Of a DNA stretch of 50,663 nt, positions 6,330 through 25,000 are shown piece after piece. The DNA comes from Nitrospirota bacterium. GTDB lineage: Bacteria; Nitrospirota; Thermodesulfovibrionia; Thermodesulfovibrionales; Magnetobacteriaceae. The position numbers and the translations under genes were made by a program. The stretch lies in contig JADFXF010000005.1 in the NCBI GenBank assembly GCA_015233685.1, positions 1 through 50,663 of the forward strand, given 5' to 3'. The notes below the pieces were generated by a model. It worked only from the letters and a program-made list of their open reading frames with translations. It did not search any database and was not told the origin of the DNA. The stretch's first letter is position 1; the number at the start of each line of letters is the position of its first letter.

Positions 6330-6359
6330 TATACAAAATGTTCTTATGTCTTGTATAAT
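6330..6359 (+). promoter_or_regulatory. Possible promoter of the CHAT locus
   Basis: A perfect TATAAT at 6354-6359 has TATACA at 6330-6335 as a weak -35, with an 18-base spacer. Transcription would start near 6366 and give a leader of about 48 bases before ATG 6414. It would drive the CHAT, DUF928 and TpsA genes, which are closely spaced on the same strand. Confidence 0.45.
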
Positions 6360-6413: not shown

Positions 6414-8675
6414 ATGAAATCCGATGCCGTTGTCATAGTTCTGTTCGTAGTTATTCTGATAGTTTTACCTGTCGGCGTCTCCTGTGGAGATACCTTTGGC
6501 GATGGCATGAGGGCATACGAACATGGCGATTTTACCGGCGCGATAGACGCCTTTGAAAAAGCGCTTGCTGGTTATAAAGAAAACCCGAAAGACCTGTCGG
6601 CAGAGGCTAATTGTCGGTTGTATCTGTCGAAGTCGTATTTATATGCCGGCCGGTTCGATAATGCCCTCGCTGTCTTAAATAAAATTCGCCCTATCATGGA
6701 AAAATCGGAAAGTGAAGGACTGAAACAGGAGATGTTAAACGTTTATGGATTGATTTATATGGCAACCGGAGATTTCAATAAGGCCAATGAGTATTACGGG
6801 AGTGCCTTGCAAATTTCCGAAAGGCAGGGGATCAGGGCCGGGATACTTAACAACCTCGGAACCCTCCATGTGCTGATAAATTCTAAAGAAAAGGCGATGG
6901 AGTACTACGAATACGGGCTTCATTTAAGCCGCAGACAGACAGATGATAAAACGCTGCACGCACAAATCCTTACAAACATAGCTGTCTTAAACATAAGCCA
7001 GAAAGAGGAATCGAAATCAGTTGAAAAATTAAAAGATGCATTGTTGATATTTCAGGGCGCTGCCAACAGCCATAAAAAAGTTGAGGGTCTTGTTAATGTG
7101 GCAAAGGCCTATATGTCTATGTCCGGCAAATCGAATATACATAATGCCCATAGCGCGCTTGACGATGCCCAAACGACGGCTGGTTTGATAGGCGACAACA
7201 AGGCCCTTCCGTATATTTATATATACAAGAGTAAACTTTACGAGGAACAAAAGGACTACAAAAGCGCCATGGTTCTACTAAAGAAATCCCTCTATGCCGC
7301 TTCAATGTCAGATGTAAGGGAATCGGGTTATATCACATACCGGCAGATGGGACGGATTTTGAGTAAAACCGGCAAGACGGACGATGCTGTGACGGCATAT
7401 AGAGAGGCCGTGCGCGCAATTGAAAACGTGGGGTTGGACGCGTTTGTAAACTGCGCGCTCTGCGGTGGAAGTTTTTTTAAAACCGAAATAGAATCTATAT
7501 TCTACGAACTCGCCGAGGTCTTAATCGAAAGGGCGTCAAAGGCGGGCAGCCCCGTCGAATCACAAAAAAACCTTTATGAGGCCATAGACACGATAGAACA
7601 GCTCCGGGCCGCAGAACTTAAAGATTACTTCAAAGACACCTGTATAGATATTCAAAAGGCCAAAGAGTCCCGCCTCGATACGGTTTCTAAAAATACCGCC
7701 ATCCTCTATGTAGTATCTTTTCCTGAGAAGTTGTACGTCTTAGTGAGTTTCCCCTCCGGCATAAAAAAATATATGGTTGACATTGCTTCTGACGACTACA
7801 CTCAGGAGGTATTAACATTTCGCAGGCTTCTCGAAAAGCGCACCACTATGCAGTTTTTAGCACACGGACAGAGGCTCTATGACATATTGATAAGGCCGGT
7901 CGAACGGGATTTTGCCCTCAATGAAACAGATACGATAGTGTATATACCTGACAGGGCATTGAGAATGATTCCCCTTGGGGCATTACATGACGGCAAGGAC
8001 TTTTTGATAAGAAAATATGCCGTTGCGGGCACAGTAGGCGTATTTTTAACCGATGCCGGGGCCTTCACGCAGAAAGACTCAAGGATGCTCGTAACGGCAT
8101 TGACCGAACCGAGGCAAGGCCATGTGCCTCTGCCCTTTATTTCGGACGAGGTTAAGGGAATAGGACAAGAGTACAATTCAAGTTTACTGATGAACAAGGA
8201 TTTTGTACTTCCCAATCTTAAAAACGAATTTAAGGACAAACAGTACAACATGCTTCATATGGCGTCTCATGGGGAGTTTACGGGAGATGCCGCTAAGGCG
8301 TTTATTGTCACATGGGATGGTAAAATGACGATAAATGATTTGGAAACCCAAATAAAGGAGGGCCGCTACAGCGCGAAACCCATAGAGATACTGGCCTTAA
8401 GCGCGTGTGAGACTGCCGCCGGGGATGAGAAGGCCGCACTTGGGCTTGCCGGGCTGTCTGTAAAAATGGGGGTTAAAAGCACAATCGCCTCCCTTTGGAG
8501 TGTAAATGACGAGGCGACATCCATACTGTTAGTGGATTTTTACAAGGAGCTGAAGACAAGCGGCGGATTTAAGGCAAAGGCCTTACGCAGGGCACAGTTA
8601 AACATGCTGGACGACGAAAGATTCAGCCATCCTCTGTACTGGGCGCCATTTCTGTTAATTGGGAATTGGTTGTAA
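6414..8675 (+). CDS. Exported TPR-CHAT protein (caspase-like)
   Basis: CHAT domains are caspase-fold (clan CD) modules; some, such as the Craspase subunit TPR-CHAT, are proven Cys proteases. The chosen start ATG 6414 has AAAGGA nine bases upstream, giving 753 residues. Residues 1-25 are a hydrophobic export signal. Tetratricopeptide repeats fill about 37-370 (for example YYGSALQISERQG). The CHAT domain covers about 480-753. The catalytic pair appears intact: His619 in MASHGEF and Cys665 in LSACETA, followed by SLWSVND. It precedes DUF928 (68 bases away) and the TpsA gene, an arrangement I recall from cyanobacterial genomes. An exported CHAT protein could process or regulate the exoprotein, but this is inference. 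Confidence 0.9.
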   Translation: MKSDAVVIVLFVVILIVLPVGVSCGDTFGDGMRAYEHGDFTGAIDAFEKALAGYKENPKDLSAEANCRLYLSKSYLYAGRFDNALAVLNKIRPIMEKSESEGLKQEMLNVYGLIYMATGDFNKANEYYGSALQISERQGIRAGILNNLGTLHVLINSKEKAMEYYEYGLHLSRRQTDDKTLHAQILTNIAVLNISQKEESKSVEKLKDALLIFQGAANSHKKVEGLVNVAKAYMSMSGKSNIHNAHSALDDAQTTAGLIGDNKALPYIYIYKSKLYEEQKDYKSAMVLLKKSLYAASMSDVRESGYITYRQMGRILSKTGKTDDAVTAYREAVRAIENVGLDAFVNCALCGGSFFKTEIESIFYELAEVLIERASKAGSPVESQKNLYEAIDTIEQLRAAELKDYFKDTCIDIQKAKESRLDTVSKNTAILYVVSFPEKLYVLVSFPSGIKKYMVDIASDDYTQEVLTFRRLLEKRTTMQFLAHGQRLYDILIRPVERDFALNETDTIVYIPDRALRMIPLGALHDGKDFLIRKYAVAGTVGVFLTDAGAFTQKDSRMLVTALTEPRQGHVPLPFISDEVKGIGQEYNSSLLMNKDFVLPNLKNEFKDKQYNMLHMASHGEFTGDAAKAFIVTWDGKMTINDLETQIKEGRYSAKPIEILALSACETAAGDEKAALGLAGLSVKMGVKSTIASLWSVNDEATSILLVDFYKELKTSGGFKAKALRRAQLNMLDDERFSHPLYWAPFLLIGNWL

Positions 8676-8743
8676 TATATAGTGTGCGTTAGAGATAATC
8701 CCGGTCTGATTTATCAGCCGAAATTTAATTTTGGGAGGTTACG

Positions 8744-9457
8744 ATGAAAAGTGTAGTGAGCAGATGTATATTCATACCAGTTTTGCTGATAGCTACAATA
8801 TGTTCACCGTTAGTTCTGTATGGCGCGGACACTGAGAATGATAAGTCTGGTGCTATCATCAAATATATACCGCCCAAGCTTGGGGCACCAAGCGTGCGCA
8901 CAGGGGGTGGAACAAGGGGCAATAGTGGAGACGCAATTGAATTAACTGTTCTCGCCCCGGCGCATACCGGACTAAGTTCAAAGACGCAGCCCTCTCTTTG
9001 CTGGTATATGTCAAAGGCGTCAAAATTAAAGATAGAAATCAGTATAAGTGAGACAAAGGCAGCAAGGCCGCTTTTGGAAAAAACCGCAGAAATTAACACC
9101 GGTGGAATCAACTGTGTAAATCTAAAAGAATATGGGGTAAGCCTTGCCGTAGGAACTGAATACAAGTGGTTTGTATCTGTGATTGGCAGTGAAGAGAATA
9201 GATCGAAGGACATTGTAAGCGGCGGGGCAGTAATCGTGACAGAACCATCGAAAGAGCTGGCGAATAAGCTATCGGCTTCAAAGGGCATTGAATCTGTTGC
9301 CTTGTATGCGAAGGAGGGATATTGGTACGATTCAATAGAGGGTATCTCGAATTTAATAAAACAAGCCCCGAATGACAAAAGTTTAAGAGAGATAAGGGCA
9401 TCCTTGTTAGAGCAGGCAGGGTTAAAAGAGGCCGCTGATATTGATAGGAAGATGTAA
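8744..9457 (+). CDS. DUF928 family exported protein
   Basis: A 237-residue protein matching the DUF928 family, which has no assigned function. Family landmarks are visible in order: the Gly-rich GAPSVRTGGGTRGNSGD near residue 50, QPSLCWYMSKASK, a VGTEYKWFVSVI strand, and the C-terminal helical segment with GIESVALYAKEGYWYDSI and LLEQAGL. An N-terminal signal peptide ends near LYGA/D. The SD GGGAGG lies at about 8733-8738 before ATG 8744. The gene sits between the CHAT and TpsA genes. In cyanobacteria DUF928 genes are commonly found beside CHAT/TPR and hemagglutinin genes, so it is probably a periplasmic or surface partner of that system. Confidence 0.85.
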   Translation: MKSVVSRCIFIPVLLIATICSPLVLYGADTENDKSGAIIKYIPPKLGAPSVRTGGGTRGNSGDAIELTVLAPAHTGLSSKTQPSLCWYMSKASKLKIEISISETKAARPLLEKTAEINTGGINCVNLKEYGVSLAVGTEYKWFVSVIGSEENRSKDIVSGGAVIVTEPSKELANKLSASKGIESVALYAKEGYWYDSIEGISNLIKQAPNDKSLREIRASLLEQAGLKEAADIDRKM

Positions 9458-9491
9458 TTAAATTGATTTGAAATCTATATGGGAGGGCACG

Positions 9492-12400
9492 ATGGGAAGA
9501 AGGCGGCGGGGTTTTGGTAACTGTTTAAGCAGATACGTTCTTAGGGCGCTTATCTGCCTGGTTGCGCTCTTCAGTTACACCTTATCCTACTCTGCCATAA
9601 TAACAGACGGTACGGTAGGCTGGGGTGGAACGTTAGTTGGCCCGAAATTTATCATACCGGCGTCTATCGGAACAACTGTCGGCAATAACCTGTTTCAGAG
9701 TTTCAGTACGTTTAATATAATGACCGGAGAAAGCGCCACATTTACGGGTTCATCGAACATACAAAACGTCATAGCCCGCGTAACCGGCGGTTCGTCGTCT
9801 TCCATAGACGGCACGCTTAGTTGCAGCATATCGGGGGCTAATCTCTATTTAATAAATCCTGCAGGTGTGATGTTCGGCAAAAACGCCACACTTGACGTAA
9901 AGGGGTCGTTTTACGTAAGCACGGCAGATTACTTAAAACTCGCAGACGGCGGCAGGTATGACGCCAGGACCCCGTCAAACTCGATATTAACATCTGCCCC
10001 GCCGTCGGCCTTTGGCTTTTTGACAAGCAATCCGGCCGGTGTAACTGTAACCGGCGCCCTTCTTCAGGTCCCTAATGGGAAGACGATTTCCATAGTCGCG
10101 GGAGACATAAACATAACAAACGGTTATCTCTACGCCCCCGGCGGGCAGATAAACCTTGCGAGTGTCGCCTCAACTGGTGAGGCATTAATGTCATCATCCG
10201 GTACAAATGTTGATGGGTTTTCAGCCCTCGGCAATATCAATATGACGCAAACCGATACAACAGGAAAGACGATAAATGGTAATGAAATCGGCAACCTTGA
10301 CGTCAGCAATCAGACGGGAGGCTCCGGCAGCATTTACATTAGAGGAGGGAAATTTGTTATTGATAATGGGCAGATTGTTGCCGATACGTATGGAGGTTCC
10401 AATGGCGGAGGTGTTAATATCAATATTACCGGCGATATGAATCTTATTAATGGCGGCATTATAGAGTCTGATACAGCAGGAAATGGCAACGCAGGGCCAA
10501 TAAATATCAAATCGGGCAATCTATCGGTATCAGGATATGCTCTTCAGAATAATTCTATTAATGTGAGCGGGATATATAGTTCTACAACTGCTGCAGGAAA
10601 TGCCGGGAATATTAATATTGAAACAAATAATCTAAGTCTTACTACTGGTATAATTGGTACCTCATCGATAGGACACTCAGGGAATGCCGGAGATATAAAT
10701 ATAAAGGCTTCAGATTCAATTAATATGTCCGGTTATTACAATGCCGGCAGCAACGGTGTTTATGGAAGCGAGATCATTAGTTTAACATCCGGTAAAGGTA
10801 ATGCCGGTAGTATTGATATTCAAACAAATAATTTAAGTCTTACTGATCTCGGTACAATTAGTACTACTACCCGGTCAGGAAGTTCGGGAAATGCCGGCAA
10901 TATCAGGATAAAAGCGTCAAACACTATTAGTATATCCGGCTATTACGATGCCGGCGGCAATGGTGTTTATCCAAGTGGCATAATTAGCGAAACATACAGT
11001 ACAGGTGATGCGGGCAGTATTGATATTGATACAAATAATTTAAGTCTTACTAATGCAGGTGCAATTAGTACCTCTGCACGATCGGGTAGCTCTGGGAATG
11101 CTGGCAATATCAGTATAAAGGCTTCAAACACTATTAATATCTCCGGCTATTACGACGCCGACAACAATGTTGCTTATCCAAGCGAGATAGTTAGTGAAAC
11201 ATACGGTATAGGTAATGCCGGCAGTATTAATATTGATACAAATAATTTAAGCCTTACTAATGCAGGTGCAATTAGTACCTCTGCACGGTCGGGAAGCTCT
11301 GGAAATGCCGGCAATATCAGTATAAAGGCTTCAGATACCATTAATATATCCGGATATTACGACACCGGCAACAATGTTGCTTATCCAAGCGAGATAGTTA
11401 GTTTCACATACAGTACAGGGGATGCCGGCAGTATTAACATTGATACAAGATATTTAAGTCTTATTAATACAGGTGTAATTAATACCACTGCCCGGACGGG
11501 AAGTTCTGGAAATGCCGGCAATATCAGTATAAAGGCTTCAGACACTATTAATATATCAGGTTATTATAATGCAGGCGGCAATGGTTTTTATCAAAGCGGG
11601 ATATATAGTCAAACATACGGTAGAGGTGATGCTGGAAGCATTAATATTGAAACAAATAATTTAAATCTTACTGATACAGGAGTAATTACTACCACTGCCC
11701 AGTCGGGAAGCTCTGGTAATGCCGGCAGTATTACGATAAAGGCGTTAGATACCATTAATATATCCGGCTATTACGACGATGGTAGCAATGGTGTTGCTTC
11801 AAGCGGGATATATAGTCAAACATCCGGTGCAGGTGATGCCGGCAGTATTAATATTGAAGCAAAAAATTTAAGTCTTACTGATGCCGGCGCAATTGATACC
11901 TCTGCCGGGCCAAGAAGCTCTGGCAATGCCGGCAATATCAGTATAAAGGCGTCATATACCATTAATATATCCGGCTATTGTGATGCTGGCAGCAATGGTG
12001 TTTATCCAAGTTGGATAATTAGTGAAACATACAGTACAGGTGATGGTGGCAGTATTAATATTGAAACAAAATATTTAAGTCTTACTGATACCGGTGAAAT
12101 TAGTACCTCTGCCCGGTCGGGAAGCTCAGGCAACGCCGGCAATATTACTATAAAGGCGTCTGATTCTATTAATATATCCGGCTATTACGCCGTCAAATAT
12201 GGTATTTACGCCAGCGGTGTAGATAGTGAAACGTACGGTAAAGGTAATGCCGGCAGTATTGATATTCAAACAAAATATTTAAGTCTTACTAATGTTGGTG
12301 AAATTGATACTTCGTCCTCGTCGGCAAGCACAGGGAAAGCCGGTGATATTGCGATAAAGGCATCAGATACTATTAAGTTAGACGGTGAAAGTGGAATATA

Positions 12401-14675
12401 TAGTCAAACATACGGTAAAGGTAATGCCGGCGCTATTAATATCGAAACGAAAGATTTAACTATTGCCGGTGCTAGTGAAATTAATACGTCGGCCCGGTCG
12501 GGAAGCTCAGGCAACGCCGGCAATATTACTATAATAGCTTCAGATACTATTAATATATCCGGCTACTATGATGTCGGCGACGATGTCGTTTATTCAAGCG
12601 TGATAAGGAGTGAAACGTACGGTAAAGGCAACGCTGGCAGTATTGATATTCAAACAAACGACTTGAGTATTGCCAATACCGGTCTAATCAGCACCTCTGC
12701 ACTGTCGGGAAGCTCGGGCAACGCCGGCGATATTACTATAAAGGCGTCAGGTTCCATTAATATATCCGGCTATTACGATACCGGAAATGGTGGTATTTAT
12801 TCAAGCGGGGTATATAGCGAAACATACGGTAAAGGTAACGCCGGCAGTATTAGTGTTGAAACAAATAATTTAAATATTACCGACCTTGGTACAATCACAA
12901 CCACTGCAATGCCGGGAAGCACAGGCAGTGGCGGCAATATCAACATAAAGGCTTCAGATACTGTTGATATATCCGGCTATTACGCTGTCAGCGGTGGTGT
13001 TTATTCAACTGGTATATACAGTGAAACATACGGTAAAGGTGATGCAGGCAGTATTGATATTGAAACAAAAAACCTGACTCTTACCGATGTTGGTACAATT
13101 ACTACCACATCACTATCAGGAAGCACTGGCAAAAGTGGCAATATTACGATAAAGGCATCAGATTCTATTAATATTACCGGCTATTACGATGCCGACGATG
13201 GTGCTTATGTAAGTGGGATATATAGTGAAACATTAGGTAAAGGCGATGCCGGCAGTATTAATATTGAAACAAGTAATTTAAATATTTCCGATGCCGGTAG
13301 AATTAGCACCACTGCAATGTCGGGAAGCACCGGCAGCGGCGGCAATATCAACATAAAGGCTTCAGGTACTGTTAACATATCCGGCTATTACGCTGGCAGC
13401 GATGGTTTTTATTCAAGCGGGATATATAGCGAAACAGATGGTATAGGCAACGCTGGCAGTATCAACGTTGAAACAAGCAATTTAAATCTTGCCAATACCG
13501 GTTTAATTACTACGACTGCCAGGCCGGGAAGCACCGGCAGTGGCGGCAATATCAATATAACGGCTTCGGATACTATTAACATATCGGGCTATTACGCTGG
13601 CAGCGATAGTTTTTATTCAAGCGGGATATATAGTGAAACATCCGGCAAAGGCAGTGCCGGCGGCATTAATATAGAAACGAACAATTTAAGTCTTACCAAT
13701 GCCGGTACAATCAGCACTTCTGCTGATAGCGGAAGCACGGGGAATGCCGGCAATATTACGATAAATGCCTCGGATTCTATCTATATTTCCAATTATTTTG
13801 ACACCGGCAAAAATATTTATTCAAACGGGATCTTAAGCGATACATATGGCAGTGGCAAAGCCGGCGATATAACTATTTTGACAAAAAATCTAACCCTCGC
13901 CAATGTCGGCAAAATCAGCACCTCGGCAGAAAGCGGAAGCACTGGCAGCGGCGGCAACATCAGTGTGCTGGCCTTAGGCTCAATTAATATATCAGGGTTT
14001 TACACAAATGGTTATGATGTATATCAAAGCGGGATTTACAGTGAGACAAACTCCAGCGGCAATGCCGGAGATGTCACGCTTCTAAGCCGTAATCTTTATA
14101 TAGATGACAACGGATTAATTACGGCACGAAGCACCGGTACCGGCAACGCCGGCAACATTACGATTAAAACGGCCGAAACGCTTCAAATGAATAACGGCGG
14201 CGACATAGCGACCTCCTCGAAATATACAACCGGAGGCAACATAGATATAGCCGCCGCGGACATACGCCTTTATAACGACAGCGGTATAACCTCAAACGTA
14301 AGCAAGGGAAAAGACAAGGGCGGCAACATTACAATCTTAGCGGGCACGCTCTGCTTACTTGACAGAAGCGCAATCTCCGCGGACGCGGACACGGGATATG
14401 GTGGTGATATTACAATCAATGCCGACACTGTGTTTTTGTGGAATACGGAGAAGGCCCTTCACGCCTCCTCGACCATCAGTGGGCAAAGTGGAACAATTAC
14501 TATAAATTCACCGCTTACGGACATCTCCGGCTCTATGGTTGCACTGACCCCACGGTATCTTGAAGCTGAAAAACTGCTCCCGGAAAGCTGTGAGGCAAGA
14601 AGAAAAAGTAAAGGCTCGTTTGTAATCAAGGGACTGGGAAATCTCTCCCCATGGAATAGTAGGGTTTCATTTTAA
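9492..14675 (+). CDS. Two-partner-secretion exoprotein (TpsA, filamentous hemagglutinin-like)
   Basis: A large secreted beta-helical exoprotein, probably an adhesin, exported across the outer membrane by a TpsB partner. The true start is ATG 9492, preceded by GGGAGG at 9481-9486, giving 1727 residues; an upstream in-frame TTG at 9468 is before the SD. A basic signal peptide ends near YSA/I. The TPS secretion domain spans about residues 36-270 and contains LYLINPAGVMFG with NPAG at 122-125. About 17-18 imperfect repeats of about 69 residues follow, then a C-terminal region without an obvious anchor. It is the last gene of the plus-strand run CHAT-DUF928-TpsA. The cognate TpsB gene is immediately adjacent but convergent. 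Confidence 0.93.
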   Translation: MGRRRRGFGNCLSRYVLRALICLVALFSYTLSYSAIITDGTVGWGGTLVGPKFIIPASIGTTVGNNLFQSFSTFNIMTGESATFTGSSNIQNVIARVTGGSSSSIDGTLSCSISGANLYLINPAGVMFGKNATLDVKGSFYVSTADYLKLADGGRYDARTPSNSILTSAPPSAFGFLTSNPAGVTVTGALLQVPNGKTISIVAGDINITNGYLYAPGGQINLASVASTGEALMSSSGTNVDGFSALGNINMTQTDTTGKTINGNEIGNLDVSNQTGGSGSIYIRGGKFVIDNGQIVADTYGGSNGGGVNINITGDMNLINGGIIESDTAGNGNAGPINIKSGNLSVSGYALQNNSINVSGIYSSTTAAGNAGNINIETNNLSLTTGIIGTSSIGHSGNAGDINIKASDSINMSGYYNAGSNGVYGSEIISLTSGKGNAGSIDIQTNNLSLTDLGTISTTTRSGSSGNAGNIRIKASNTISISGYYDAGGNGVYPSGIISETYSTGDAGSIDIDTNNLSLTNAGAISTSARSGSSGNAGNISIKASNTINISGYYDADNNVAYPSEIVSETYGIGNAGSINIDTNNLSLTNAGAISTSARSGSSGNAGNISIKASDTINISGYYDTGNNVAYPSEIVSFTYSTGDAGSINIDTRYLSLINTGVINTTARTGSSGNAGNISIKASDTINISGYYNAGGNGFYQSGIYSQTYGRGDAGSINIETNNLNLTDTGVITTTAQSGSSGNAGSITIKALDTINISGYYDDGSNGVASSGIYSQTSGAGDAGSINIEAKNLSLTDAGAIDTSAGPRSSGNAGNISIKASYTINISGYCDAGSNGVYPSWIISETYSTGDGGSINIETKYLSLTDTGEISTSARSGSSGNAGNITIKASDSINISGYYAVKYGIYASGVDSETYGKGNAGSIDIQTKYLSLTNVGEIDTSSSSASTGKAGDIAIKASDTIKLDGESGIYSQTYGKGNAGAINIETKDLTIAGASEINTSARSGSSGNAGNITIIASDTINISGYYDVGDDVVYSSVIRSETYGKGNAGSIDIQTNDLSIANTGLISTSALSGSSGNAGDITIKASGSINISGYYDTGNGGIYSSGVYSETYGKGNAGSISVETNNLNITDLGTITTTAMPGSTGSGGNINIKASDTVDISGYYAVSGGVYSTGIYSETYGKGDAGSIDIETKNLTLTDVGTITTTSLSGSTGKSGNITIKASDSINITGYYDADDGAYVSGIYSETLGKGDAGSINIETSNLNISDAGRISTTAMSGSTGSGGNINIKASGTVNISGYYAGSDGFYSSGIYSETDGIGNAGSINVETSNLNLANTGLITTTARPGSTGSGGNINITASDTINISGYYAGSDSFYSSGIYSETSGKGSAGGINIETNNLSLTNAGTISTSADSGSTGNAGNITINASDSIYISNYFDTGKNIYSNGILSDTYGSGKAGDITILTKNLTLANVGKISTSAESGSTGSGGNISVLALGSINISGFYTNGYDVYQSGIYSETNSSGNAGDVTLLSRNLYIDDNGLITARSTGTGNAGNITIKTAETLQMNNGGDIATSSKYTTGGNIDIAAADIRLYNDSGITSNVSKGKDKGGNITILAGTLCLLDRSAISADADTGYGGDITINADTVFLWNTEKALHASSTISGQSGTITINSPLTDISGSMVALTPRYLEAEKLLPESCEARRKSKGSFVIKGLGNLSPWNSRVSF
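10589..14100 (+). repeat. Tandem repeat array of about 207 bp (69 codons) in the TpsA gene
   Basis: About 17-18 diverged copies are encoded, each following the pattern NAGSIxIxTNNLSLT, then ISTxxxSGSSGNAGN, IKASDTINISGYYD and a variable YxSGIxSETYGKG. Copies differ at many positions, so the array is old rather than freshly expanded. This periodicity is expected for a right-handed beta-helix. Confidence 0.88.
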
Positions 14676-14696
14676 AATACCCACGCAACACAGTTA

Positions 14697-16454
14697 TTAA
14701 AGCACCTGTGTGGTTAATTTAAAATAAACGCTTCTGTCCTGCAGGTCTTTATTGTTGACACTGACGTTTCTAAACGGGTGGGCGCCGTAGATTTGAAATA
14801 GGATCTTATCGGTAATTGCCCATTTAATTCCCAGGCCGGTGCCTGATATTGCCTTAGGCGCTGGCGTTACACTTTTTGTATTCCATGAATATCCATAATC
14901 AAAAAAAGGTACAAGCTGCACTATATCCGGCCTTGACCCCGAACCATAGATAGGGATGCGAAACTCTAACGAGGAAAAAATACCGTTATCCCTAACCAAT
15001 ACGTTATTCCTGTAGCCCCTGACGCTGTCCATGCCGCCGATTGAGAATTTCTCTAATGGCAGTAAGGGATCCTTTGAATACTGTGCGTCTGTGCGGACAA
15101 CTAACTGGTTTAGCGTGCCAAAGAGCCGCTCTATCCACTGAACTTGCCCCAGCCACGCTAAGAATTTACCGTCCGGGCCGCTTTCAGTCATTGTCGAGTT
15201 AAACGCGTCCACACCCACACTTATGGTGCAACGGGCGGCTATCACGCGGGTCTGGCTCCTCTGCGACCATTCCTGAAAAAACCTCAGCACAAATATATTT
15301 GTCCTGCCATCGCTGATTCCCTCGGTAAAAGAAAAACTCCGGCCAAGCAGAAATGTCTCTGAAAATCTCAAATCCGATGTAACCCCAAGCGTAAACTCCG
15401 TAGCCGTCGTCTTATAAAACGGGCGGCTTAGGGTCACGCCTAAGGACTTCACCCTGCTCTTTATGTCAAGGTTCTTAAAAGGGTCTTCTATTACAATTGT
15501 TTCGTTTTGCCTGTAATTTAGTTTCAGCGTGGTATCGTCAACGCTCAACGGTATCGCATACTCCGCCATCCCGTCCATCAATCCCTGTGTGTATGTGAAA
15601 CTCCCGCGTATAATGTCCCCATGTCCGGTTAAGTTTCGGTACGCGGCAAAGACATCCCCGCCGTATGAGCCTATGCTCGGCGAATGGTCATTACTGCCTT
15701 CGACAATAAGTGTCAACGGCTGGCTCTCCTGTACTTTAACCTTTAACGTGCCTTCACCTGCCCTTAAGCCGGGGATAAGCTCGGCATTCAGCCTTTGAAT
15801 CATCGGGTTTTGAAGCATGATTTGAAGGCCCTGCTGAAGTTCATTTACATTTAAATATGTGCCGGAGTAATACCTCAATTTTTTTCTTATATAGTCGGCG
15901 CTGAAGGATTTATTTCCTTCCACCTCTATCTCTGTAAGTTTACCTTCAATGGCTGAAAGGACTAATTCGCCGTTTTCTACCTTCTGGTCGGGAATCACTA
16001 CGCCGGAATTAATAAAGCCGTGTTTTATGTAGCATTCCGTCAAGGCGCGCCGAAGCTGTTCCAGTTCCATATAGCTTATCTCTCTGCCGATATAATTATT
16101 TGTTATAACACTTAGCTCATCGTCTTTAAGAATCGTATTGCCTTTAATTGTAATTTTATTAACATACACGGTAACGGCAGAACTCAGGCCATCATCTTTT
16201 ACCTCCGGCAAATCGGGAAGTGTGATATCTGGGGCGGATTTTTCAGGTCTTAGTTCAGGAAGCGGCGCCAATTGCATATTTTGCTGAGTTGACGGGTCAA
16301 TACTATGAAAATGGTCTGAATATGTCTCCGCATATATTGCCTGCGGCATGATGACAGACAGGACGAGTAAAGGCAAAATTATCATATACGCCGCAACTTT
16401 GGCGTTGCGCGCTGAATTCAATTGAAACCGCCTGTTTTGTTCATTTGAAGCCAT
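14697..16454 (-). CDS. TpsB outer-membrane transporter (ShlB/FhaC/HecB family)
   Basis: This Omp85-superfamily pore exports the neighbouring TpsA protein. The 585-residue protein has an N-terminal signal segment ending near IYA/E and two POTRA domains at about 92-240 (for example KITIKGNTILKDDEL and IEVEGNKSFSADYI). The rest is a 16-strand barrel ending in a hydrophobic C-terminal strand (VYFKLTTQVL). The conserved L6-loop motif VRGYR is at residues 478-482. The gene faces tpsA tail to tail, 21 bases apart, and diverges from the CHASE2-cyclase gene across 97 bases. Separate transcription from its substrate is unusual for TPS pairs. No clear SD precedes the ATG. Confidence 0.93.
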   Translation of the reverse strand: MASNEQNRRFQLNSARNAKVAAYMIILPLLVLSVIMPQAIYAETYSDHFHSIDPSTQQNMQLAPLPELRPEKSAPDITLPDLPEVKDDGLSSAVTVYVNKITIKGNTILKDDELSVITNNYIGREISYMELEQLRRALTECYIKHGFINSGVVIPDQKVENGELVLSAIEGKLTEIEVEGNKSFSADYIRKKLRYYSGTYLNVNELQQGLQIMLQNPMIQRLNAELIPGLRAGEGTLKVKVQESQPLTLIVEGSNDHSPSIGSYGGDVFAAYRNLTGHGDIIRGSFTYTQGLMDGMAEYAIPLSVDDTTLKLNYRQNETIVIEDPFKNLDIKSRVKSLGVTLSRPFYKTTATEFTLGVTSDLRFSETFLLGRSFSFTEGISDGRTNIFVLRFFQEWSQRSQTRVIAARCTISVGVDAFNSTMTESGPDGKFLAWLGQVQWIERLFGTLNQLVVRTDAQYSKDPLLPLEKFSIGGMDSVRGYRNNVLVRDNGIFSSLEFRIPIYGSGSRPDIVQLVPFFDYGYSWNTKSVTPAPKAISGTGLGIKWAITDKILFQIYGAHPFRNVSVNNKDLQDRSVYFKLTTQVL

Positions 16455-16499
16455 TATAAAATATTAATTGTATGGATTGCAATATTTATTAACCATCGC

Positions 16500-16527
16500 C
16501 GGCACGAGGAGATGGTTGCCCGTGCCG
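16500..16527. repeat. Inverted repeat between divergent tpsB and cyclase genes
   Basis: CGGCACG at 16500-16506 and its exact complement CGTGCCG at 16521-16527 flank a 14-base centre. It lies between the starts of the two divergent genes and overlaps the probable -35 of the cyclase promoter, so it may be an operator. It could also be chance. Confidence 0.35.
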
Positions 16528-16546
16528 TGCACTATTGTGATATAAT
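16516..16546 (+). promoter_or_regulatory. Extended -10 promoter predicting leaderless CHASE2-cyclase mRNA
   Basis: A perfect TGnTATAAT (TGATATAAT, 16538-16546) ends five bases before the ATG at 16552. A weak -35 TTGCCC lies at 16516-16521. Transcription would begin at or next to the start codon, and no SD is present, so the mRNA should be leaderless. The acetolactate decarboxylase relic at 36061 has the same nine-base element six bases before its GTG. Confidence 0.6.
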
Positions 16547-16551
16547 CCTTT

Positions 16552-18471
16552 ATGAAATCGATATTAAAAAAAGCGAAATCGCCAATTTTCGTATGCTTTA
16601 CCATAACAGTTCTCATATGTGCGGTTGTCATTATGGTACGTAACTACGGGTATTTGCAAATAATCGAACTGGCCGGCGGCGAATTGGCCGCATATGATGG
16701 ATTTTTAAAATTCTCTCTGCGGGGCGCAAAACCGGACAATAATATAGTAATCATATCTATGAGTGAAACGGATATTCACAAATATGGAAGGTGGCCGATG
16801 ACCGACCAAACGATGGCCGAGCTTCTTAGGAACTTAAGCGAATACAGTCCCTGCGTAATCGCAGTAGATATATACAGAGATATCCCCGTCCCAGCGGGAA
16901 GCGATAATCTTACAAGAGTTCTCCATGAGCTGAACAATGTCATCATGGCCAAAAAAATCGGAAACGATTCAGAGACTGATGTGCCAGGGCCGTATATGCT
17001 AAGCAACCCCGACAGGGTAGGCTTTACAGACTTTCCCCTTGACCCTGACGGTGTAATAAGGCGAGGGCTGCTGTTTGCTGGAAACGGTGAAACAACGTCG
17101 GCGTCGTTTTCGCTGCTTACGTCCCTCATTTTTTTGCAAGACAAGGGCATAACGCCGCAGCCGGGGGCACTAAACCCCGCGCACATGCGACTAGGCAATA
17201 CAACCTTTGTACCGCTTAGTCCTAATGATGGCGGCTATGTTGGCGGCGATATGGCAGGGTATCAATTCCTGATGGATTTCAAGGGCGGGCCGTTTACCAG
17301 ATATTCTCTTTACGATGTATTGGAGAAAAGGATACCCGGTAACGCACTACGCAGCAAGGCAATTATCGTAGGAGTAGAGGCGGTAAGTGTTAAAGACTAT
17401 TTCGTTACGCCGCTCAAATCCACACTGGCCACCTCTGGTGTGGAGATGCACGCATTCGCGGTGAGCCAATTAATCAGGGCAGCCCTTGGGGGAGATAAAC
17501 CCATGTCCTTTATAGGTGATCGCTATAAGTGGGCATGGATTTTTATATGGGGATTAGTTGGGTGGGCACTGGGTTTGAGAATACGCTCTTTCCCTAAATT
17601 TCTTGCCATGGCCGCGGGGGCGGCAGTGCTCTTAATCGCGTCGGCTTATACTACCTTCTCCGGTGGGCTTTGGATACCGGTTGTGCCGCCTGCCTTGTCA
17701 CTGCTTTTTTCGGCATCTCTGGTGACGGCATATAAATCGTATACGGAGGGTGCCGACAGGTCTCAGATTATGCAGTTGTTCTCAAGGCACGTTTCAAAAG
17801 ATGTAGCCGAAGCGATATGGGAAGACCGTGATAGTTTCCTTGAAAACGGCCGCCCTCGTCCGCAAAAACTCACTGCAACCGTGCTGTTCACCGATTTAAA
17901 GGGTTTTACATCGGTATCCGAGACGCTTCAACCTCAACCTTTGATGGACTGGCTTAACGAGTACATGGAAGCGATGGCCGGTGTCATAATCAAACACGGT
18001 GGGGTTATAAATAAATACATCGGCGACGCCATAATGGCCGTATTTGGTGTTCCCATAGCAAGACACACTCAGGAGGATATAGGTAAAGATGCAATAAACG
18101 CTGTCACATGTGCCGTTGAGATGGGCATCGTGCTTACACGTTTAAAGGCTGACTGGGTAAGGCGCAATATGCCGGTTATTGACATGCGCGTTGGGATATA
18201 TACAGGGGAGTTAGTTGCCGGTTCTTTCGGCAGCTCCGAGCGCCTTGAATACACGGTAATTGGCGATACGGTAAATATCGCATCCCGTCTGGAGAGTTTT
18301 GACAAGGACTACTGTGACCCGGAATTTGCGGACCCGGCCTGCCGCATATTGATTGGCGGCACTACATTTAAATACCTCAAAGGAAGGTTCAGGACAAAAG
18401 AAGCCGGCAATGTGGCTCTAAAGGGGAAAGAGGAGAAAGTAAACATCTATCTGATCGGAGGCTCTGCATAA
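16552..18471 (+). CDS. CHASE2 sensor adenylate/guanylate cyclase (class III)
   Basis: A membrane receptor cyclase of 639 residues making cAMP, or less likely cGMP, in response to an extracytoplasmic signal. An N-terminal transmembrane segment (about 12-30) leads to a CHASE2 domain (about 40-310), including SMSETDIHKYGRWP and VGFTDFPLDPDGVIRR. Three transmembrane helices follow at about 325-395 and a class III catalytic domain at about 435-630. Metal-binding Asp448 (LFTDLKGFT) and Asp492 (KYIGDAIMA) are present, as are Lys488, Thr568 (EYTVIGD), Asn575 and Arg579. The Lys/Thr purine pair suggests a class IIIb adenylate cyclase. The gene diverges from tpsB, so the CHASE2 signal may be linked to the secreted adhesin system. 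Confidence 0.92.
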   Translation: MKSILKKAKSPIFVCFTITVLICAVVIMVRNYGYLQIIELAGGELAAYDGFLKFSLRGAKPDNNIVIISMSETDIHKYGRWPMTDQTMAELLRNLSEYSPCVIAVDIYRDIPVPAGSDNLTRVLHELNNVIMAKKIGNDSETDVPGPYMLSNPDRVGFTDFPLDPDGVIRRGLLFAGNGETTSASFSLLTSLIFLQDKGITPQPGALNPAHMRLGNTTFVPLSPNDGGYVGGDMAGYQFLMDFKGGPFTRYSLYDVLEKRIPGNALRSKAIIVGVEAVSVKDYFVTPLKSTLATSGVEMHAFAVSQLIRAALGGDKPMSFIGDRYKWAWIFIWGLVGWALGLRIRSFPKFLAMAAGAAVLLIASAYTTFSGGLWIPVVPPALSLLFSASLVTAYKSYTEGADRSQIMQLFSRHVSKDVAEAIWEDRDSFLENGRPRPQKLTATVLFTDLKGFTSVSETLQPQPLMDWLNEYMEAMAGVIIKHGGVINKYIGDAIMAVFGVPIARHTQEDIGKDAINAVTCAVEMGIVLTRLKADWVRRNMPVIDMRVGIYTGELVAGSFGSSERLEYTVIGDTVNIASRLESFDKDYCDPEFADPACRILIGGTTFKYLKGRFRTKEAGNVALKGKEEKVNIYLIGGSA

Positions 18472-18920: not shown

Positions 18921-19054
18921 ATTATTAATGGGGGTGGGCTATGTTTAAGTTTTTTGTGTGAATTTGGAAGGGTTTCCTGTCAATCATTGAGCTGTCGTGA
19001 TGGCGGGTATGTCTTTTCGTAATGGTTTGTAATACAGGGCGGGAGGATGTGGCA

Positions 19055-22000
19055 ATGAATAGGATGTCGGCTTTTTTCATAACTCTGGTCTTATCTGCCG
19101 TAATGCTTTTCGTTTCAGCTCAGTCGGTCTGCGCTGTAACGCAGGTTGGGTCTACTGCCGTGGATAATTCAAATCAACAGCCTACCGACCACGCGGCCAC
19201 GCTGTTACCCGATAGTCTGATAACAGGCAGCCGCAATCCTGTCGTAAGTCTGATGTCTCTTGCCGCAAATACAAACTCAGCAAACTCTCATATAACAACC
19301 GGCAACTCTCAGCCTGCCACGACCGGTTCCAGAGGCGCCTTTAAACCCAAGCCGGAGCTTTCAACAACAGCGACTGAGTTTAAGGTCTTTAATAATATCG
19401 GTTCCTATACAGATTACATCCAGGACGGTGGCGCGTGGTTAGGGTACTTTATCAGAAATGCCCTGTTGGAAGACAGCGGAGGCAACTTATACTTTGTTTA
19501 TGGCAACGCCAAACAGTTGTGGTACGCAGAGTACACGGCCAATATAAACTCATGGTCTAACACACAGATTGATACCCGTTCAAAGGGCGTAGCCGCGACG
19601 TCTATGGTCCTGGATACAAATGGCAACAGATGGGTTTTTACATCGGAAATCACCAGGGTTGGCAACTGGGACCGTTATGGTGATTCAGCGATATATGAGG
19701 AAACAGGGGGTTCATGGAACAAGGCTGCGGATCTTTACGTAAACAGGGGATGGGAACTTACCGGCCCAAACGATGTGGCCCACACTATGATAAAGGACGC
19801 AAACAACAACTTACACGTCTTGTTTCAACGGGAAGGCTGGTTTAGTTACGGGAATGCCGCTAAAGAGATGATTTACGATGCTACCGCAAAGTCTTTGTCA
19901 GGTATAATTACCATTTCAGGCACGTCCAGTGGTGGTGCGGATGATAACAGAAATGATGCTAATGATACCATAGTTTTATCTTCTGACGGCACTATTTATG
20001 CCCCAATGACTGACCACCAGCAGGGTTTTTTTTACATTGGCAAGTCAAGTACGTATGGTTCATGGGATACTTCAACTGTCCTTGGTTATACGGGTGATTA
20101 TCAATCGGGTGTTTCATATCAGGACGAATTTGGAAACTGGCATACGGTATATACTGATAGTACTATTAAAAATGTGTACTACGGGTTGAACTGGGCAACG
20201 CCTCAGGAGATTTACACATCTACCGGAAATATAGGCTATTACCCAACTGACATTATTGCGGTAGGCAATATAGTTTATATTTCGGCAATTCAGTATGACA
20301 GTAATGCTAACGCAAGAGGTGATTATTATCTGATAGTTAAGGATGCCAATGGTACATGGAGCGCCCCTCAACAGATAACCAGCGAGGCGTCATGGTCATC
20401 AAACCAGGTGCCGTGGGCGGATGGGTTCGTAAAAAAAGCCCATGCAAGCACATTAATTCCATCTGTGTACTTTGCATATTTGAATCAGGACGGCAGTTGT
20501 AATAACTGTACAAACGGGACATCAGGGGGCTGGAGCGGCGCTAAATTAAAGATTTTACAGATAACGAACTCCACTAAAATAACAAACTCCCCTACCGCAA
20601 CATCAACAAGCGTCTCCTCGTCTGAGAATCCATCGAACTATGGCGATTCGGTAACATTCACGGCGACAGTTACCGGCGCTTCCCCCACAGGAACAGTTAC
20701 GTTTAAGGACGGCGTGGGCACTATCGCCGCCGTTTCGCTGGATGTAAATGGACATGCCTCATTCCCGACATCATCGCTTTCGGGAGGCACTCACTCAATA
20801 ACGGCGGTTTACGGCGGGGATTCAAGCAACGCGACCTCGACATCATCTGTACTCAGTCAGGTCGTAACTGTGCTCAGTCAGGTCGCAACAACCTACACCA
20901 TATCAGGGACAGTTACGCTAAGTGGTAGTGGTCTAAGCGGCGTAACGGTAATCCTTAGCGGGGCCGGTACGGCAACAACAACCACCAACGGCAGCGGCGC
21001 GTATAGTTTTACAGGGCTTTCTGATGGAAGCTATACAGTAACGCCAGGCATGATCGGCTATAGATTTAGTCCACCATTAAGCATTGTTACTGTAAGCGGG
21101 GCTGATTCTACTGGGAATGACTTTACGGCTTCTGTAAATGTCCCGACACCGGGCGGGTTTTCTGCCACGGGTAATTTAAATAAACAGCGTGGCTACCACA
21201 CATCCACACTGTTACCCAACGGTCAGACGCTTATTGTCGGTGGCTCCGGCTCAACTCAGACAGCGGAACTGTACGACCCATCATCAGGGACGTTTACCGC
21301 TACTACCGGCAGTCCTACTCAACAGCGTGATTACCACACAGCCACGCTGCTGCCTAACGGTAAGGTGCTTATTGTCGGCAGCGGCACCTCTGTTGGTGCG
21401 GCTCAAACAGCGGAACTGTACGACCAGTCAACAGGGACATTTACCGCTACTACCGGCAGCCCTACTCAACAGCGTAGCTACCACACAGCCACTTTGTTGC
21501 CCAACGGTCTGGTGCTTATTGTCGGGGGGGCTAGCTCAACTCAGACAGCGGAACTGTACGACCCGTCAACAGGGACATTTACCGCTACTACCGGCAGCCC
21601 TACTCAACAGCGTGTCGTTCACACAGCCACATTGTTACCCAACGGTCTGGTGCTTATTGTCGGGGGCAACAGCTCTCAACAAACAGCGGAACTGTACAAC
21701 CCATCATCAGGGCTGTTTACCGCTACTACCGGCAATCCTGCTCAACAGCGTTACTCCCACACGGCCACGCTGTTACCCAACGGTTTGGTGCTTATCGTCG
21801 GTGGGTCGCCCTCTGCTCAAACAGCGGAACTGTACGACCCATCATCAGAGACATTTGCCGCTACCGTCGGCACTCCTGCTCAATCGCGCAACATTGGCTT
21901 CACTGCCACCCTGTTACCAAGCGGTAAGGTGCTTATTGCCGGAGGGCAAGCCTCTCCTTCAACAGCGGAACTCTACGACCCAACAGCGGGTACGTTTGCC

Positions 22001-25000
22001 GCGACTACAGGCAGTCTCATTCAACAGCGTTACTTACACACAGCGACGCTGTTAGCCGGCGGCAAGGTGCTTATTGCAGGGGGTGTCAGCTCTCTTCAAT
22101 CACTTGAAACAGCGGAGCTGTTCGACCCATCAGCAGGGACGTTTACCGGTACTAACGCCATTCCAACTACAGGGCGTTACTGGCACACAGCCACGTTGTT
22201 ACCCAGTGGCAAGGTACTTATTGCCGGAGGGGGGTACTCTACTGAAACAGCGGAATTATTCGACCCAACAGCAGGGACGTTTACCGCTACCGGCAGTCCT
22301 GCTCAAGTGCGTTACTGGCAAACAGCCACGCTGCTACCCAACGGTAAGGCACTTATTGTCGGGAGCGACGACTCTAGTGCTTCTCAAACAGCGGAACTGT
22401 ACGACCCATCGGCCGGGACGTTTACCGCTACTGGCATTCCTACTCAACCGCGTGAATCCCACACAGCGACGCTGTTACCCAACGGTAAGGTGCTTATTGC
22501 AGGGGGGCAACTCTCTCTTCAAACAGCGGAACTGTACGACCCAACAGCAGGGACGTTTACCGCTACCGGAAATCTTACTGTCCAGCGTGAATATCATACA
22601 GCGACTCTGTTACCCAACGGTAAGGTGCTTATTGTTGGGGGGCAACTTTCTGCTCAAACAGCGGAGCTGTTCGACCCAACAGCAGGGACGTTTACCGCTA
22701 CCGGCATTCCTACTGTCCAGCGTGACTGGGGTTTCACAGCGACGTTGCTACCCAACGGTAAGGTGCTTATTGTCGGGGGGGTGGCCTCTCCTTCAACAGC
22801 GGAACTGTACGACCCAACAGCAGGGACGTTTACCGCTACCGGCATTCCCACTCAGCAGCGTTACCACCACTCAAGTGCGCTGTTACCCAACGGTCTGGTG
22901 CTTATTGTCGGGGGGGTCGGGGGGTCATCTCTTCAAACAGCGGAACTCTACGACCCATCAACAGGGACGTTTACCGCTACCGGCATTCCCACTCAGCAGC
23001 GTGAATACCACACAGCGACTATGTTACCCAACGGTCAAGCGCTTATTGTCGGGGGGTGGACCTCACCTCAAACAGCGGAACTATTCGACCCATTTGATGG
23101 TCTGATAACCGGCAGCCGCCGTCCTAACGTAAGTTCAATGTCTTTCACTGGCACCAAGATAACCCTATCGGGCACTAAGTTCAAAGGCGACTCTGAGGCA
23201 AGCGGCGGGTCTTTCAACAACTCATCCACCAACTATCCTATTTTACAGTTAATGAGGATTGACAATGGGCAGACGTATTATGTCCCATCCGACAGCACCA
23301 CGAATTGGAGCGATACGACCTTTCAATCGGCCTCTGTCGCCTCTTACCCCGGTGGCCATTATATTGCCTCTATAATCACAAATGCCCTTCAAAGCACATT
23401 CACCGGCGGTGTTACCGGTGCAATCATGCTTGATCCAACGTCAACGCTTTCCTGCGCTACATCGGGAAGTCCCTCGTTGTCCGGCAATTCGGTATCTTTC
23501 ACGGCCACACTATTAGTTAGTAATTCTCCAATCGGCGGCGTTACATTTACTGATAACATTGACGGGACCCTCTGCACCTCGGTTGGACTTATTGGGGTGA
23601 CCGCCACATGTTCAAAATCGACGCTTTCTGTGGGCAGTCATACAATAACGGCGACATTCAGCGGGGACTCATTGAATGAGCCGTCGTCGTGTACCGTGAA
23701 TCAGGTGGTTAGTTCCCAGACATCAACATCAACAGCCGTCGTCTCATCTTTAAATCCCTCAACAGACGGCGCGCCAGTGACATTCACGGCCACGGTAACC
23801 GGCAGCTCGCCAACAGGCAATGTTACCTTTTATGACGGCGCAACATCTCTTGGCACGGTTGCCTTAAATGGAAGCTGGCAGGCCGCTTATTCTACGTCGT
23901 CACTTTCTGTCACCACACATTCAATAACGGCGGTTTACGCGGGGGATTCAAATAATACGACTTCGACATCATCTGTACTCAGTCAGGTTGTAAATGCCGC
24001 ATCATCAACGACAACCCTCACATCATCACTGAATCCCTCGACATACGGCGCGTCGGTAACCTTCACGGCGACGGTTGCCGGTGTATCTCCAACGGGCAAT
24101 GTTACGTTTAAAGACGGCACGACGACACTTACAACAGTTGCCCTTTCAGGCGGACAGGCCACATATTCAACATACTCACTCACAAACGGCACACACTCAA
24201 TAACGGCGCTTTACGATGGGGATCCAAACAATACCTCTTCGACATCATCTGCACTCAGCCAGGTAGTAAATACCGCTCCGGCATATGCGGGTAGTATCTA
24301 TGTGGCAAACCTTAATTCCAATACGGTTACAGTATATCCGAACGGCTCCTCGACTTCAACCCCATCCTACACCATCAGTGGACTGAATGAGCCTAGAGGT
24401 GTAGCAGCCGATGCCAACTATACTTATATAGCAAACTCTTCTGGAAATACAGTTGCGGTATATCCAAAAGGCGCCTCGACATCGACCCCATCCTATACCA
24501 TCAGCGGCCTGAATTATCCTTTCGGGGTAGCAGTGGATGCCAACTATATTTATGTGATAAACTATTCTACCAATTCAGCAACGGTATATCCAAAAGGCGC
24601 TTCAACTTCAACGCCATCCTACACCATCAGCGGCCTGACTTCTCCTCAGGGGGTGGCAGTGGATGCCAACTATATTTATGTAGCAAACGTTGGTGTAAAT
24701 ACAGTTGCGGTATATCCAAAAGGCGCCTCGACATCGACCCCATCCTATACCATCAGCGGCCTGAATTATCCTTTCGGGGTAGCAGTGGATGCCAACTATA
24801 TTTATGTAGCAAACGTTGGTGTAAATACAGTTACGGTATATCCAAAAGGCGCCTCGACATCGACCCCATCCTATACCATCAGCGGCCTGAGTACGCCTTG
24901 CGGGGTAGCAGTTGACGCGAACTATATTTATGTGATAAACTATTCTACCAATTCAGCAACGGTATATCCAAAAGGCGCTTCAACTTCAACGCCATCCTAC

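Follow-up and report, generated by a model that had tools for sequence, protein, structure and literature searches.

A TPR-CHAT protein, a DUF928 protein and a CHASE2 sensor linked to two-partner secretion in Nitrospirota and other phyla: a candidate system for retaining surface proteins

The 50,663-nucleotide stretch analysed here (the window; contig JADFXF010000005.1 of assembly GCA_015233685.1, from a Nitrospirota bacterium of the family Magnetobacteriaceae) carries at positions 6414-18471 five adjacent genes, encoding a TPR-CHAT protein and a DUF928 protein, both exported, a TpsA exoprotein of the two-partner secretion (TPS) type, its TpsB pore and a CHASE2-cyclase. The parts are genomically linked in sequences from several phyla, and the cluster very probably works as one functional unit: genes spaced as closely as in an operon, a recurrence that spans phyla, fusions of TPS with CHAT and of CHAT with CHASE2, and a TpsA tail motif that tracks with CHAT together support a single system well. 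A reasonable reading, which we place just short of even, is that of a TPS system that has a periplasmic protease and a sensor of its own, by which the cell would probably hold or release a giant surface protein upon a signal. TpsA cleavage, the direction of signalling and a part in adhesion are what we infer from this arrangement. Searches of the open-access literature (DUF928; CHAT with TPS; CHAT with CHASE2 or haemagglutinin) brought up no paper on the cluster, and the partnership of CHAT, TPS, DUF928 and CHASE2 appears undescribed, in agreement with an earlier note on this DNA, which had seen no described joint function.

All five genes are present and intact, each with strong Pfam support (Table 1), in the order CHAT, DUF928, TPS, TpsB, CHASE2-cyclase, with TpsB alone on the minus strand. 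The DUF928 match (PF06051) reaches 116 bits against a curated cut-off of 26, and the hallmarks of type Vb secretion are found in the TPS domain (PF05860) with its NPxG motif and in the POTRA and ShlB-type barrel regions of TpsB. The TpsA open frame opens at a TTG at 9468, the first ATG being that at 9492. The cyclase retains VLFTDLKGF, KYIGDA and YTVIGDTVNIASR, that is, the metal, Lys and Thr (substrate-specifying) positions, a set that corresponds to the class IIIb adenylate cyclase pattern. Pfam matches, an alignment of 28 proteins and these motifs thus bear out what the earlier note had read by eye, namely five adjacent genes, an intact His619/Cys665 pair and intact cyclase residues. The note also took CHAT and DUF928 to be exported, and inspection finds a Sec-type signal peptide at the start of both; a CHAT protein without a cleavable signal, which the note had named as counting against its proposal, is not what the window encodes. 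The window's assembly, about 65% complete, contains a single copy each of CHAT and DUF928.

Physical linkage is stronger evidence for a single system than is genome co-occurrence. Among 75 regions surrounding DUF928 in Nitrospirota, CHAT lies within 8 kb in 66, and CHAT with TPS or TpsB in 61; the chance of finding one such family within 8 kb is roughly 1-2%, a figure whose underlying copy numbers are estimates. Median gaps are operon-like (TPS-TpsB, -4 bases; TpsB-CHAT, 8; CHAT-DUF928, 24; CHAT-CHASE2, 14; CHASE2-DUF928, 23), and at least 92 of 150 TPS genes, among the matches listed, sit within 15 kb of CHAT. Across 296 Nitrospirota genomes (DUF928 in 65, CHAT in 114, TPS in 102, CHASE2 in 198), CHAT is present in all 65 with DUF928 vs 49 of the 231 without it (Fisher p = 2e-34), and TPS in 62 of the 65 (p 2e-32); because the genomes are related, with DUF928 confined to 13 of 135 genera, these p-values are descriptive. 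The earlier note had staked its proposal on co-occurrence beyond chance, and on these counts the proposal survives. A smaller cluster (L208, G055:C1:3042000-3060000) encodes a 425-residue TPS protein with the tail motif discussed further below, together with TpsB and CHAT, without DUF928 or CHASE2.

CHASE2 is nearby in a minority of Nitrospirota clusters (14 of 75), and several of those scanned that lack it have a TonB receptor, an ABC-type binding protein, a histidine kinase, or a PAS-rich or sigma-54 regulator near DUF928. The core of the cluster is TPS, TpsB, CHAT and DUF928, and the output is exchangeable. The scarcity of CHASE2 near Nitrospirota clusters, together with the many cyanobacterial CHASE2-DUF928 pairs that stand apart from CHAT and TPS, would also suit a different account, by which an adhesin module (TPS, TpsB, CHAT) and a signalling pair (DUF928, CHASE2) travel together, co-selected for life on surfaces, with no physical contact between them. 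However, DUF928 in Nitrospirota is found with CHAT and TPS, about 24 bases apart, rather than with CHASE2, and CHAT-CHASE2 fusions exist; the two modules are thus not cleanly separable, and we judge their independence to be rather improbable.

Beyond Nitrospirota, the cluster is also found in Desulfobacterota, Pseudomonadota, Verrucomicrobiota, Acidobacteriota and Cyanobacteria. Scanning species genomes yielded 80 further DUF928 loci; the query was a five-sequence DUF928 alignment, the cross-phylum alignment having no sufficiently conserved stretch. Complete or near-complete sets occur, besides Nitrospirota, in Desulfobacula, Desulfotignum, Sulfuricella and metagenome-assembled genomes (MAGs) of Pyrinomonadaceae, Rokubacteria and Verrucomicrobiota, and a partial one in Scalindua; because contigs of MAGs may be assigned to the wrong bin, no single MAG taxon should be given much weight. 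Recurrence in cyanobacteria, which the earlier note had put forward, is real and part of a wider spread: a Pseudanabaena ABRG5-3 plasmid carries TpsB, CHASE2, TpsA, CHAT and DUF928 consecutively, TPS, CHAT, DUF928 and CHASE2 are all present in Oscillatoria PCC 10802, and the commonest cyanobacterial pair is CHASE2-DUF928 (19 of 23 loci).

Domain fusions join the same partners. Four cyanobacterial proteins and one from Nitrospirota combine a TPS domain with CHAT, and the annotated protein on plasmid pREC3 of Acaryochloris marina comprises, in order, a TPS domain, repeats, the tail motif CAVPRSGQSQFIVTGRGGLP, TPRs and CHAT; placement of TPR-CHAT directly after the tail motif fits a model in which CHAT acts there. 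CHAT-CHASE2 fusions adjoin DUF928 (loci L111 and L185), and the partners of CHASE2 in relatives include a histidine kinase, a kinase-receiver, GGDEF-EAL and CHAT. A CHASE2-GGDEF-EAL protein in a Xenococcaceae MAG (L190:7008-9620) adjoins CHAT and DUF928 and represents a variant of the sensor geared to cyclic di-GMP (c-di-GMP).

Toxin delivery is common among TPS systems, and CHAT proteases have roles in defence; with CHAT as the C-terminal part of the Acaryochloris exoprotein, the cluster might then be viewed as a contact-dependent toxin or self-killing device whose delivered or activated effector is the CHAT protease. Yet in most cases CHAT is exported as a protein of its own, the window TpsA matches the TPS domain only and ends at a short tail motif, and the gene next to it is that for TpsB, so that no CdiA-type C-terminal toxin domain with an immunity gene is found in the window; nor does any immunity-like gene recur in the neighbourhoods. 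With neither a toxin domain nor a recurring immunity gene, we reject a toxin or contact-dependent inhibition function as highly improbable.

The TpsA proteins linked to CHAT end in a shared motif, Cys-x(about 10)-Ser-[Ser/Thr]-[Phe/Leu]-x3-Gly-Arg-x-x-[Leu/Ile]-Pro, often followed by x-Glu-Pro-Gly-Gly-Trp-Leu. A profile built from 33 linked Nitrospirota tails recognizes 52 of the 58 TpsA in the linked Nitrospirota set; of the six that it misses, five are fragments, and the other, from the window's sister genome, has a divergent tail that fits by eye. In a second set outside the training data (including the TpsA of the window, those of other phyla, truncated proteins and fusions, plus a few loci repeating Nitrospirota contigs of the training set) the profile matches 20 of 40, and in its strict form it misses the divergent copy of the window. 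All six complete TpsA from genomes without CHAT lack the motif (seven more are cut by contig ends and are uninformative), and among about 20 complete TpsA located away from CHAT in CHAT-bearing genomes it is clear in four and weak in two. Fisher values for the motif are based on a manual count of intact C-termini and take no account of kinship among the genomes, which makes them descriptive. In most Nitrospira tails there is another Cys, two residues from the C-terminus. The motif Arg is ruled out as a universal cut site, being Leu in both the window and the sister genome.

The TPR-CHAT protein has the features of a putative protease of the caspase/separase-like type. His619 and Cys665 (numbered from the ATG at 6414) are invariant across 28 aligned TPR-CHAT proteins, and the AlphaFold model of the window protein (predicted local distance difference test score, pLDDT, 89.3) finds its best PDB matches in the TPR-CHAT protein of Craspase (Csx29) and, lower, in separase, with which it shares TPRs and a CHAT-type fold. 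Both Craspase and separase are regulated proteases with defined substrates. Unlike Csx29, which is part of a CRISPR effector complex, the window CHAT is exported and encoded in a TPS cluster. Its signal peptide in the window's genus ends in Ser-Cys, and hence the protein may be a lipoprotein. Cys410, in the linker between the TPRs and CHAT (same numbering), is also invariant in the 28 relatives. Export as a hallmark of the TPS-linked CHAT subgroup is ruled out; unlinked CHAT proteins of the phylum usually carry signal peptides too, so that export alone is nothing special.

What the CHAT protein acts upon is a separate matter. The TPS-CHAT fusions and the tail motif favour the exoprotein over DUF928 as its target, and we consider the likelihood that CHAT acts on TpsA to be evenly poised. 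It could instead leave TpsA uncut, serving as a periplasmic scaffold or chaperone whose TPR superhelix holds the tail or aids TpsB, with its proteolytic activity directed at DUF928, the CHASE2 domain or another envelope protein. This alternative, which strikes us as unlikely but deserving of weight, draws on the large TPR part, a peptide-binding element in many proteins, and on cyanobacterial CHAT proteins that stand beside CHASE2-DUF928 without TPS; the invariance of the His-Cys dyad argues against it, as does the linkage of TPS to CHAT where DUF928 and CHASE2 are lacking (the short TPS protein beside CHAT in G055).

The DUF928 protein is modelled (pLDDT 87.6) as an immunoglobulin (Ig)/Fn3-like sandwich followed by five helices, and the closest solved fold is the C-terminal domain of MtxA, 4z29 (Foldseek E 1.2e-5; VIA-align Z 10.6 over 153 residues, the next entry scoring 7.1). 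MtxA of Magnetospirillum gryphiswaldense was reported to have a signal peptide, the gene following mtxA to be similar to CHASE2 and adenylate cyclase, and deletion of mtxA to give no phenotype in the assays performed; the tyrosine-corner pattern L-x-x-G-x-x-Y discussed for MtxA (PMC4439547) is matched by LAVGTEY in the window DUF928. The two proteins thus share an Ig-like plus TPR-like fold, a signal peptide and a CHASE2-cyclase gene close by; the DUF928 profile search does not list 4z29 up to E 10. Because fold and gene context agree, though the sequence search misses it, MtxA is likely a remote DUF928 protein. Among other variants of the family, a Scalindua protein (L124:9134-10657) holds two DUF928 domains, several Nitrospirota genomes have adjacent duplicated DUF928 genes, and two proteins (L155:9452-10540 and L174:381-1556) carry long runs of RGV-type repeats (SRGV, VRGG) ahead of the domain.

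These elements can be assembled into a mechanism. TpsB would export TpsA, as is established for the TPS family, and the C-terminal tail of TpsA would remain at the periplasmic mouth of the pore, holding the protein on the surface. TPR-CHAT would bind this tail and cut or otherwise process it, so that TpsA is released or matured, and DUF928 would connect this complex with CHASE2, the sensor domain. Signalling could run inside-out, as for LapD, with a cytoplasmic signal setting the protease, or outside-in, as the earlier note proposed, with the state of the pore reported inward as cyclic AMP (cAMP) or, in relatives, through phosphotransfer or c-di-GMP. The complete chain from TpsB through the TpsA tail, CHAT and DUF928 to CHASE2 is put forward more tentatively than its parts. 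Of the adhesin-protease-signalling system envisaged by the note, the unity of the parts is well supported and the exoprotein side is strengthened by the fusions and the tail motif; cAMP becomes one possible read-out among several, since relatives carry other CHASE2 outputs and most Nitrospirota clusters have no CHASE2 nearby.

Precedents exist for parts of this scheme. In the CdrA-CdrB/LapG/LapD system of Pseudomonas aeruginosa, a periplasmic cysteine protease under second-messenger control sets the retention of a TPS exoprotein at its C-terminal tail, LapG freeing CdrA through a cut in the periplasmic tail, and in HxuA and HMW1 a C-terminal disulfide loop retains the protein in the pore (PMC5422565, PMC4694147). 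On its best reading, the cluster would work like CdrA-LapG-LapD with unrelated parts, outside that family: the protease is a PF12770 CHAT rather than the transglutaminase-like LapG, the sensor a CHASE2-cyclase rather than the GGDEF-EAL receptor LapD, and the DUF928 protein is an addition. The likeness in release is a proposal read from sequence; on the sensor side, the CHASE2-GGDEF-EAL protein beside CHAT and DUF928 at L190 resembles LapD. Long-tailed relatives share the C-terminal Cys pair of the HMW1/HxuA anchors, whereas the window TpsA has one tail Cys, and neither CHAT nor DUF928 has been described for HMW1 or HxuA.

Several observations weigh against retention and release by CHAT. No cleavage site was identified; the single Cys of the window tail does not supply the pair of the HMW1/HxuA-type anchor, and Leu takes the place of the possible cut-site Arg. 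The tail motif is absent from three of the cyanobacterial TPS-CHAT fusions and from the Nitrospirota fusion. Exported CHAT proteins are common in the phylum without TPS, and many cyanobacterial DUF928-CHASE2 pairs have neither CHAT nor TPS nearby. Finally, the genome counts are phylogenetically non-independent, and the named loci are a biased sample from a narrow query.

Table 1. Features of the cluster in the window.
Feature	Position	Strand	Evidence or remark
Exported TPR-CHAT protein, 753 residues from the ATG at 6414	6414..8675	+	Pfam CHAT 3.1e-49, TPR families, signal peptide; open frame begins at 6351
Catalytic codons of CHAT, His619 (8268-8270) and Cys665 (8406-8408)	8268..8408	+	Invariant in 28 aligned relatives
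Exported DUF928 protein, 237 residues	8744..9457	+	Pfam 2.3e-33; predicted Ig/Fn3-like sandwich and five TPR-like helices
TpsA exoprotein, N-terminal TPS domain (9669-10328) and long repeat region	9492..14675	+	Pfam TPS 3.4e-36; NPXG domain TIGR01901 8.1e-19
TpsA C-terminal tail motif CEARRKSKGSFVIKGLGNLS, short one-Cys form	14589..14648	+	Alignment with tails of CHAT-linked TpsA proteins
TpsB pore with POTRA domains	14697..16454	-	Pfam ShlB 9.5e-26, POTRA_2 4.7e-21
Divergent intergenic region, 97 bases, between TpsB and CHASE2-cyclase genes	16455..16551	.	Gene coordinates
CHASE2 sensor (16618-17562) and class III cyclase (17872-18456)	16552..18471	+	Pfam CHASE2 1.8e-52, Guanylate_cyc 2.2e-25; catalytic motifs

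Directly after the cluster, an open frame of 5571 residues (19022-35737, plus strand) encodes a predicted giant surface protein in which kelch and NHL/Vgb-type propeller repeats occur together with numerous Big_3_5 Ig-like domains.

Taken across phyla, the cluster may represent a widespread envelope system, a possibility to which we give somewhat less credence than to the reading of the cluster in the window, in which TPR-CHAT controls the surface retention of TPS proteins through their tails and the DUF928/MtxA fold couples it to exchangeable CHASE2 outputs (cAMP, c-di-GMP, phosphorelay). Such a system, if it exists, would solve for a second time, by separate evolution, the problem that LapG-LapD solves. 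With it, DUF928, a domain whose function is unknown, would gain a role, as would the TPS-linked exported TPR-CHAT proteins, for whose caspase-like protease the TpsA tail is a concrete substrate candidate; the system would tie DUF928 to MtxA, a protein of magnetotactic bacteria reported without known homology; and it would explain why the cluster is found in several phyla, nitrifiers and cyanobacteria included.

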